Of a DNA stretch of 64,000 nt, positions 25,738-29,989 are shown one piece after another. Source of the DNA: Lachnospiraceae bacterium (GTDB lineage: Bacteria > Bacillota > Clostridia > Lachnospirales > Lachnospiraceae). The position numbers were made by a program, and so were the translations under genes. The stretch spans positions 1-64,000 of the forward strand of contig JAILGS010000036.1 of the NCBI GenBank assembly GCA_024696615.1, in the 5' to 3' direction. The notes under the pieces are model-generated. The model worked only from the letters and a program-made list of their open reading frames with translations. It was not told the origin of the DNA and did no database searches. Every line of letters begins with the position of its first letter. The first letter of the stretch is position 1.

Positions 25738-25786
25738 AAAAAGCACAAGGTATACATAAAGTATTTATGTATACCTTGTGCTTTTT
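25738..25786. terminator. Bidirectional terminator hairpin between convergent genes
   Basis: Perfect 23-bp stem AAAAAGCACAAGGTATACATAAA-GTA-TTTATGTATACCTTGTGCTTTTT. Confidence 0.9.
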
Positions 25787-25873
25787 CACATTTATTTCGT
25801 ATTATTCATCGTATTACTCATTCGGATTATTTTATATTATTTTATAATATTTCGGATCCTTACTTATTTCGTA

Positions 25874-26947
25874 TTATTCTTTGGAATCTTGCTCGGTTCG
25901 TAAGCGAACTGCATCCTTGGCACGGCGCTTGGTTTCATCCAAAACATCCGCATAATGCTTTCTGGTAGTATTCACGTCTTTATGTCCTAATACATCGGCC
26001 ACTAAGTAAATATCCCCGGTTTCCTGATATAAATTGGTACCATAGGTACTTCGTAATTTATGGGGAGTGATTTTCTTTAATGTGGTAACGGTGGTGGCAT
26101 ATTTCTTTACTAAAATCTCCACGCTACGCACGGTAATCCTGCGATTCTGGCGGGAGAGGAAGAGTGCCTGTTCATGGCCCTCATTCGGTGTGAGAGTGCC
26201 CCTTTCTTCAAAATAATCTGCCAAAGCATCCCTTACTTCATCTCCAAAGTATACAATATCTTCATATCCGCCTTTTCGGATCACCTTAATGCATTGATTT
26301 TCAAAATCCACATCCGTTAAATCCAGTCCAACACATTCGGATACACGAATTCCTGTACCTAATAACAGGGTTAAGATGGCCATATCCCTGGTTTTTAATT
26401 TTTCATGATAAACCTGCTGTAATTTGCTTAATTGTTCCCCGGATTCCACATGATCCAAGAGTTCGGATACTTCGTTAATTTCTAGACGAACTATATTTTT
26501 TTCATGAATCTTAGGAATTAATACCTGTTCCGAAGGATTCACATCAATTCGCTTGGTTTGATGAAAATATCGATAAAAACTACGTATGGAGGATAGTTTT
26601 CGCTTAATAGCTCGATCATTATTGGTATAAGTTTTTCCGTCTTTTTCATAATAACGAATATAACTTAAATATTCCTCAATATCATAGGATGTAATTTGCT
26701 CTAGAATCGAAATAGGGAACTGATGCATGGGCATATTCTTATAGATGGGATTATTTTCTTGAATATAGCTAAAGAAGGTTTTTAAATCTATGGCATAGGA
26801 TAATCTGGTACGGGATTCGGTGGTAAATTCAATACCACGGAAATAATCCGCAACAAATGCAGGAAGTTCCTTTAATAATTCCCGAAGTTTCACCATATTC
26901 TGAATCGTAACCTGATCATGATAGGTTTTATTAGAATTCGATGCCAT
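25874..26947 (-). CDS. Tyrosine-type recombinase, XerS-like single Xer recombinase
   Basis: 357 aa; TGIRVSE, IRKGG, HKLRSTYG, LGHKDVNTTRKHY supply the R-K-H-x-x-R-H-Y constellation; no integrase-associated genes nearby. Confidence 0.85.
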   Translation of the reverse strand: MASNSNKTYHDQVTIQNMVKLRELLKELPAFVADYFRGIEFTTESRTRLSYAIDLKTFFSYIQENNPIYKNMPMHQFPISILEQITSYDIEEYLSYIRYYEKDGKTYTNNDRAIKRKLSSIRSFYRYFHQTKRIDVNPSEQVLIPKIHEKNIVRLEINEVSELLDHVESGEQLSKLQQVYHEKLKTRDMAILTLLLGTGIRVSECVGLDLTDVDFENQCIKVIRKGGYEDIVYFGDEVRDALADYFEERGTLTPNEGHEQALFLSRQNRRITVRSVEILVKKYATTVTTLKKITPHKLRSTYGTNLYQETGDIYLVADVLGHKDVNTTRKHYADVLDETKRRAKDAVRLRTEQDSKE

Positions 26948-26986
26948 AAGACAATACCTCCAATATTCCTGAAATTTCCTATATGA

Positions 26987-27014
26987 ATTTCGTAAAACTA
27001 TGGTTTAGCGAAAT
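26987..27014. promoter_or_regulatory. Candidate dif-like recombination site upstream of the Xer recombinase
   Basis: ATTTCGTAAAA-CTATGG-TTTAGCGAAAT: 28 bp, two 11-bp arms matching 9/11 as an inverted repeat around a 6-bp spacer. Confidence 0.6.
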
Positions 27015-27088
27015 AACCTATATCCCTATCTTACTCCCCTTTTTGGGGTTTGTAAAGAAAAATAATGGATAAATTACGGATTCTTTCT

Positions 27089-28779: not shown

Positions 28780-29160
28780 TTATTCATTTAACGTAAAAAT
28801 AATTAATTTCTTGCCACTGACAATCTGATTATTGGTAATATGATTCATCTCTTTCATTTCCTTCATGTAGGATTTCACGCTCATATTGCAAGAAGGTGCA
28901 TAAATACTTGCAATCTCCCACAGACTATCCCCCGGCTGAACTTCATAGCTATAATAGGAACGCTCCAAAGTGGTATTGGCAGCCCATACATGATTATGAA
29001 TTCCAAGAGCTACTAAGATTAATACGATCACAGCAATTACGGATGCTATACGGATCTTACGGATCATAGCTTTCTTTCTACGAAGCGCCTTCTTCTTAGA
29101 AGAAGTATATCTTCTCCGTCCATTCACTTTATCTTCCATTACAATTACATCTCCACTCAT
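28780..29160 (-). CDS. LysM-domain membrane protein, YneA-like (candidate SOS cell-division inhibitor)
   Basis: One TM helix then YEVQPGDSLWEIASIYAPS...NQIVSGKKLIIF; divergent from lexA. Confidence 0.85.
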   Translation of the reverse strand: MSGDVIVMEDKVNGRRRYTSSKKKALRRKKAMIRKIRIASVIAVIVLILVALGIHNHVWAANTTLERSYYSYEVQPGDSLWEIASIYAPSCNMSVKSYMKEMKEMNHITNNQIVSGKKLIIFTLNE

Positions 29161-29205
29161 TCTTCCATCTCCCTTGAATCCTAAAAATAAGTTACATGCA
29201 TCTTA

Positions 29206-29219
29206 CGAACATCTGTTCG
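29206..29219. promoter_or_regulatory. LexA box
   Basis: CGAACATCTGTTCG, perfect CGAAC-N4-GTTCG. Confidence 0.9.
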
Positions 29220-29243
29220 TTATCTTGAACATAATATATCATT

Positions 29244-29257
29244 CGAACAAATGTTTG
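29244..29257. promoter_or_regulatory. LexA box
   Basis: CGAACAAATGTTTG. Confidence 0.8.
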
Positions 29258-29269
29258 TCAACAAGAAAT

Positions 29270-29283
29270 CGAACATTTTTTCG
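29270..29283. promoter_or_regulatory. Degenerate third LexA box
   Basis: CGAACATTTTTTCG. Confidence 0.45.
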
Positions 29284-29293
29284 GAAAATATGT

Positions 29294-29322
29294 TTGCTTT
29301 TTATGATGGGGTATGCTATCAT
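29294..29322 (+). promoter_or_regulatory. Putative lexA promoter
   Basis: TTGCTT-N17-TATCAT. Confidence 0.45.
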
Positions 29323-29368
29323 GAGTTAGAAACATGATAACAAAGGGCTTTGTTATGGAGGTAAAGCG

Positions 29369-29989
29369 ATGAAAAATGGTAGAATTTCAGACAAACAGAT
29401 GGAAATTCTAGAATTTATTAAATCTGAGATCCTTCATCGAGGTTATCCGCCATCCGTTCGAGATATCTGTGATGCGGTGAATCTTAAATCCACCTCTTCC
29501 GTCCACTCTCATCTTGAGACACTGGAGAAGAATGGATATATTCGAAGAGATCCAAGTAAGCCAAGAACCATTGAGATTATTGATGATTCCTTCAATTTAA
29601 CCCGTAGAGATATGGTCAATGTTCCTATGTTGGGAGATGTGGCTGCAGGGGATCCAATCCTGGCAGTACAGCATATTAATAATTTCTTCCCAATTCCAAC
29701 GGAGTTTTTACCCATGGGAGAAATCTTTATGTTGGAAGTACATGGGGATAGTATGATCAATGTGGGTATTTTCGATGGGGATCATATTATTGTGCGAAAG
29801 CAGAATACCGCTTCCAATGGTGAAATTGTGGTGGCTTTAATTGATGATTCCAGTACTGTGAAGCGTTTTTATAAGGAAGGGGACCATATTCGTCTTCAGC
29901 CAGAGAATGATGCGCTAGATCCAATTATTGTACCGGATTGTCAGATTATGGGAAAAGTGGTTGGTCTTGTGCGACTAGACATACGATGA
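29369..29989 (+). CDS. lexA: LexA repressor
   Basis: SDKQMEILEFIKSEILHRGYPPSVRDICDAV; HGDSMINVGIFDGDHIIVRKQ. Confidence 0.97.
   Translation: MKNGRISDKQMEILEFIKSEILHRGYPPSVRDICDAVNLKSTSSVHSHLETLEKNGYIRRDPSKPRTIEIIDDSFNLTRRDMVNVPMLGDVAAGDPILAVQHINNFFPIPTEFLPMGEIFMLEVHGDSMINVGIFDGDHIIVRKQNTASNGEIVVALIDDSSTVKRFYKEGDHIRLQPENDALDPIIVPDCQIMGKVVGLVRLDIR

Follow-up and report, generated by a model that had tools for sequence, protein, structure and literature searches.

A probable single-Xer chromosome dimer resolution system with a 28-bp dif-like site at the replication terminus of Lachnospiraceae

Introduction

Among the bacteria of the gut and the rumen, the Lachnospiraceae form a major family, and no account of their chromosome dimer resolution, nor of the module described here, was found in a search of open-access papers, outside which most subscription journals fall. 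The question is raised by a 64-kb stretch of Lachnospiraceae DNA, hereafter the window, in which a tyrosine recombinase gene adjoins a short palindrome: do the two form a chromosome dimer resolution system, and of which type, or does the pair represent a gene with its operator, or an integrase with its attachment site? The initial annotation of this locus had favored a compact single-Xer dimer-resolution module in Clostridia, comprising a XerS-like recombinase and a dif-like site, and distinct from a phage integrase.

The recombinase gene and its adjoining site

The initial annotation described a 357-aa minus-strand tyrosine recombinase ending at 26947 and, 40 bp upstream of its start codon, a 28-bp dif-like site of 11-6-11 layout with arms inverted at 9/11 positions. 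Both descriptions hold: the ORF is complete, with an ATG start, and the coordinates and arm match of the site are confirmed (Table 1). The recombinase has the full catalytic set, with all six residues found (R201, K225, H296, R299, H322, and Y332). An N-terminal search against PDB sequences retrieved no relative. Read in the orientation of the gene, the site is ATTTCGCTAAA-CCATAG-TTTTACGAAAT.

Table 1. Coordinates of the features of the recombinase locus within the window
Feature	Position	Strand	Details
Tyrosine recombinase gene, single Xer-type	25874-26947	minus	357 aa; PF00589, 119.6 bits
28-bp dif-like site ATTTCGTAAAA-CTATGG-TTTAGCGAAAT	26987-27014		11-6-11 layout
Gene-proximal arm ATTTCGTAAAA	26987-26997		inverted-repeat half
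6-bp centre, putative strand-exchange zone	26998-27003		varies among species; identical at relatives' prophage junctions
Gene-distal arm TTTAGCGAAAT	27004-27014		inverted-repeat half
Candidate recombinase promoter TTTACA-N17-TAAGAT	27028-27056	minus	consensus match only
Replichore switch	25769-27014		GC skew and ORF strand

The palindrome alone is weak evidence, because 11-6-11 palindromes with an arm match of at least 9/11 occur at 19 positions in the window. The sequence of the site is nevertheless unique there (one match at up to 3 mismatches, 0 expected), and the whole genome, a 2.0-Mb assembly of 105 contigs that is 81% complete, matches the family consensus exactly at a single place and, on another contig, once more with 2 mismatches. 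CCTATAT direct repeats do flank the site at 26978 and 27017, as annotated, but their role as a functional element was rejected; they are probably incidental, since they are not kept in the closest relatives (L035-L037).

Conservation of gene and site in the family

Full-length orthologues of the recombinase, with 43-64% identity, are encoded in 53 of the 59 other family genomes, the six genomes without one (G006, G016, G018, G023, G048, and G052, which display weak matches only) being mostly incomplete assemblies. A further 80 named loci, mostly from Lachnospiraceae and including Roseburia, Butyrivibrio, Eisenbergiella, Agathobacter, Lachnospira, and Lachnoclostridium phytofermentans, among others, encode recombinases with 57-78% identity. 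The window carries a LysM protein gene and a divergent lexA near the recombinase (28780-29989), and the link to this SOS locus is conserved, because the same neighbors recur beside the recombinase in another family genome (G022, L342). One genome harbors two recombinase copies, of which the additional one has diverged further (51% identity; G003:C2:103222-104241, L341 6226-7242) and is located between the site and the main gene.

The family sites include two classes. The class-I consensus, TATTCGYNAAA-N6-TTTNRCGAATA, is matched with at most one mismatch in 28 of 52 relatives, 25 of which have just one such match, so that 26 of the 29 genomes having class I, own genome included, carry a single copy, the number expected for a dif site; a reversed pattern used as a control gave 8 matches in all. 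A diverged class-II site, TATACGACAAA-N6-TTTTTCNAAWA, lies near the gene in several relatives without class I, and among the 53 relatives whose recombinase is full-length, neither pattern detects a site in about 13. The predicted conservation of the motif upstream of orthologues is borne out: where site and gene share a contig, 36/36 sites, own genome included, are 5' of the recombinase, 17 of them within 300 bp and 31 within 3 kb. Many genomes place 0.4-28 kb, and some 6-28 kb, with other genes, between the two; a few have them on different contigs, and a single site downstream of the recombinase was found among the named loci (L114).

The three closest relatives (75-78% identity) carry GGTTCGCTAAA-CCCGAG-TTTTACGAATA 25-89 bp upstream of the gene. 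In several diverged sites the two arms change jointly and stay inverted, as in ACGTCG/CGACAT, TCTTCG/CGAAGA, and TATCGG/CCGATA, and the 6-bp centre varies freely between relatives. In one genome two extra class-I sites lie away from the recombinase (G039:C99:10978 and G039:C154:4388), the genes around the first resembling a mobile element.

Position at the replication terminus

Near the site, GC skew in the window drops from about +0.2 to about -0.15, its cumulative maximum at 25769 lying 1.2 kb away. Of the ORFs with 200 aa or more, the 18 before this point all lie on the plus strand, and 22 of the 23 after it lie on the minus strand; local GC skew partly follows gene strand, and these two signals are thus not independent. 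The same location is observed in two relatives with single-contig genomes, each sampled at 20 points: (i) in G046, the site (3.28 Mb) falls within the stretch from 3.15 to 3.50 Mb over which the skew flips, and (ii) in G035, the site (93 kb) falls within a flip that spans 14 to 140 kb. The linkage of the recombinase gene to a site near the terminus is a trait shared with XerS/difSL.

Partner recombinases and FtsK

A two-recombinase system would require XerC and XerD. XerC does not exceed the model cut-off in any of the 60 family genomes, where the top XerC matches are XerD genes, and XerD does so in 23 of the 60, nine more having full-length or near-full-length matches just below; about half of the relatives keep an intact XerD. 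Several genomes of 96-100% completeness lack it, among them G009, G012, G022, G035, G036, G039, G043, and G054, and it is present in all six genomes with only weak matches to the window recombinase. The window's own genome encodes one other tyrosine recombinase only, in an 81%-complete assembly: a 267-aa XerD-like frame (G000:C104:12640-13365; L002 1084-1887) truncated before the catalytic HxxR/Y region. It was rejected as a functional XerD, as translation of the frame terminates at NALRKRS, short of the catalytic tyrosine, and, judging from its sequence, is a relic of a two-recombinase system. The search for a separate XerC/XerD pair thus returned none, although a second recombinase could be missing from an assembly of this completeness. 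The canonical Firmicutes dif core has no match at 1 mismatch in this fragmented assembly, and FtsK-gamma is present in all 12 genomes tested, own genome and 11 relatives.

Filamentous prophages and viral copies of the site

Filamentous prophages occupy the site in several relatives. In G054, two dif-like sites in direct orientation enclose a 5.8-kb element (L332 3700-9553, G054:C34) that encodes an assembly ATPase of the Zot family (PF05707) and a replication protein of the G2P type (PF23343); the recombinase gene begins 160 bp past the second site. A viral record (L345 354-14312) comprises two filamentous prophages in tandem, delimited by TATTCGTTAAA-CTAGAC-TTATCGCGAAT, TATTCGTTAAA-CTAGAC-TTTCGCGAATA, and CTTACTGATTA-CTAGAC-TTTCGCGAATA, three sites identical in their CTAGAC centre and differing in their arms. 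A further filamentous prophage of this kind (L232 2363-8618) terminates at an intact site, beyond which lies the recombinase gene; this 28-mer also occurs, with no prophage at it, in an Agathobacter MAG (L104) and in G033 (L023). The junctions of L345 and L232 share the centre CTAGAC and one or both arms. This is the pattern that would be expected if the host Xer recombined the site across its 6-bp centre, as occurs with CTX-phi at dif. An extra class-II site in G013 (G013:C2:11644; L340 7645-7672) is located beside a filamentous-phage replication protein with 47% identity to that of L232.

The class-I site also occurs in at least 120 IMG/VR stretches (viral contigs L163-L282), compared with 6 for the reversed pattern. 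Many of these contigs belong to tailed phages and carry the site close to their terminase genes, and an unnamed ORF about 130 bp from the site is common to 52 of the 120. The tailed-phage sites were rejected as attP partners of the host site: their centres match the host in 2 of 115 cases, with 7.6 expected, and integration of these phages at the host site is unlikely because the centres do not match. One idea is that the copies serve phage multimer resolution by the host Xer.

Comparison with known Xer systems and alternative explanations

The alternative that survives best, though an improbable one, is a true XerS/difSL system, the window enzyme being a Clostridia member of the streptococcal family. 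The proteins have the same size, the gene adjoins its site in both, XerS is the best-scoring NCBIfam model for the recombinase, and the phylogenetic tree recovers a joint grouping with Bacilli XerS (91/83). The score against this model (NF003462) is however 205.8 bits, below the cut-off of 267, and the recombinase shares only 28.5% identity with Bacilli XerS (L115) at a bit score of 111, no closer than the 115 obtained with a Lachnospiraceae XerD and lower than the 157 obtained with other recombinases of the phylum. In the tree, the recombinase forms its own clade (100/98), separate from that of Bacilli XerS (100/99), with other proteins of the phylum closer to it; sampling was partly by XerS score, so that the tree would, if anything, exaggerate how near the recombinase stands to XerS. 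The sites point the same way: difSL is 31 bp long with an 11-bp centre (PMC5357621), whereas the family site retains 28 bp and a 6-bp centre, and difSL as recovered beside the L115 xerS gene, used as a positive control, differs from it. A XerS-like identity for the recombinase is accordingly not sustained, and the core likeness to difSL once proposed for AAAACTAT was rejected, the overlap falling mostly in the freely varying 6-bp centre.

Less probable still is that the palindrome is an autoregulatory operator, or the site of another regulator, and takes no part in recombination. In favor of this reading, a promoter-like sequence immediately precedes the palindrome, which, wherever it shares a contig with the gene, is found on the upstream side. 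Given the candidate promoter, whose AAGATAG string recurs before the site in L035 and L036, the site would fall in the 5' UTR, which weakly suggests that the recombinase may limit its own expression. An operator is nevertheless hard to reconcile with the many sites separated from the gene by intervening genes, with a site that tracks the terminus, and with prophage junctions that fall inside the palindrome and share its centre; operator and recombination roles could coexist. The least probable reading is that the recombinase is the integrase of a phage or integrative element and the palindrome its attachment site, since, although a tyrosine recombinase stands by a palindromic site at which relatives' prophages reside, nearly every genome has one orthologue of the gene, its chromosomal neighborhood by lexA and the LysM gene is conserved, it is located at the terminus, and the prophages adjoin the gene without carrying it.

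The preferred reading, a single-recombinase dimer resolution system, resembles several known systems. It shares with XerS/difSL of Streptococcus and Lactococcus one recombinase of about 356 aa, a site by the gene and at the terminus, and no need of a XerCD pair, and differs in a protein only 28% identical and of another clade, in the arms, in the 28-bp instead of 31-bp site, and in a gene-site distance that reaches several kb. XerH/difH of Helicobacter and Campylobacter likewise comprises one recombinase of similar length and a linked site with a hexanucleotide centre (PMC2731167), and its arms differ; XerH lay outside the tree, and in pairwise comparison the recombinase scores 45 bits with H. 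pylori XerH, weaker than the 81 bits with E. coli XerD. With XerC/XerD-dif of E. coli and B. subtilis it has in common a 28-bp 11-6-11 terminus site, FtsK-gamma, and filamentous phages that integrate at the site. Two recombinases act there versus one here, where XerC is absent, XerD is lost or decaying, and the canonical dif core was not found in the own genome. The prophages resemble CTX-phi-type IMEX in that filamentous phage genomes are inserted at a dif-like site, in tandem in L345, and differ in that only one Xer protein would serve as the host recombinase and in that the integrated copies are seen in Lachnospiraceae. Recombinases of about 310 aa in other families of the phylum (L128-L141) may resemble archaeal XerA.

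Proposed mechanism and implications

A conserved one-copy site at the terminus, one conserved Xer protein, and FtsK-gamma, the features of single-Xer dimer resolution, thus occur together. We consider it about 90% probable that the recombinase and the 28-bp site constitute a system at the replication terminus that resolves chromosome dimers with a single recombinase, because the site is conserved and at the terminus, XerC is absent and the XerD of this genome a relic, and prophages are found at the site. The module would function like XerS/difSL without being XerS. The near-universal gene, the conserved terminus site, and the lack of a XerC and XerD pair uphold that part of the original proposal which placed a compact single-Xer module, and not a phage integrase, in Clostridia.

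In the mechanism envisaged, (i) one Xer protein would bind both 11-bp arms as a dimer; (ii) the two sites of a dimeric chromosome would be brought together at the septum with FtsK, which would activate the recombinase; (iii) the R-K-H-R-H-Y chemistry would cut and exchange strands across the 6-bp centre; and (iv) this exchange would turn the chromosome dimer into two monomers. A broader scenario is put forward tentatively, as doubtful in its entirety: Lachnospiraceae may have evolved single-Xer resolution independently of XerS and in place of XerCD, the window's genome showing XerD in the course of decay. Recombinase and arms would have co-drifted, giving rise to at least two classes of site; phages, both filamentous and tailed, would take advantage of the site, and the variable centre may partly reflect escape from phage integration.

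The pairing of a defined enzyme with a 28-bp site offers a marker for the terminus and a setting in which to study how a single protein can do the work of the XerCD pair, and the site provides a natural integration point for genetic tools in anaerobes that are hard to engineer. The recombinase would also be a host factor for filamentous phages of Lachnospiraceae. The family seems to separate fused chromosomes with a single enzyme and site where two enzymes are usual, and it is at this site that filamentous viruses appear to enter the chromosome.
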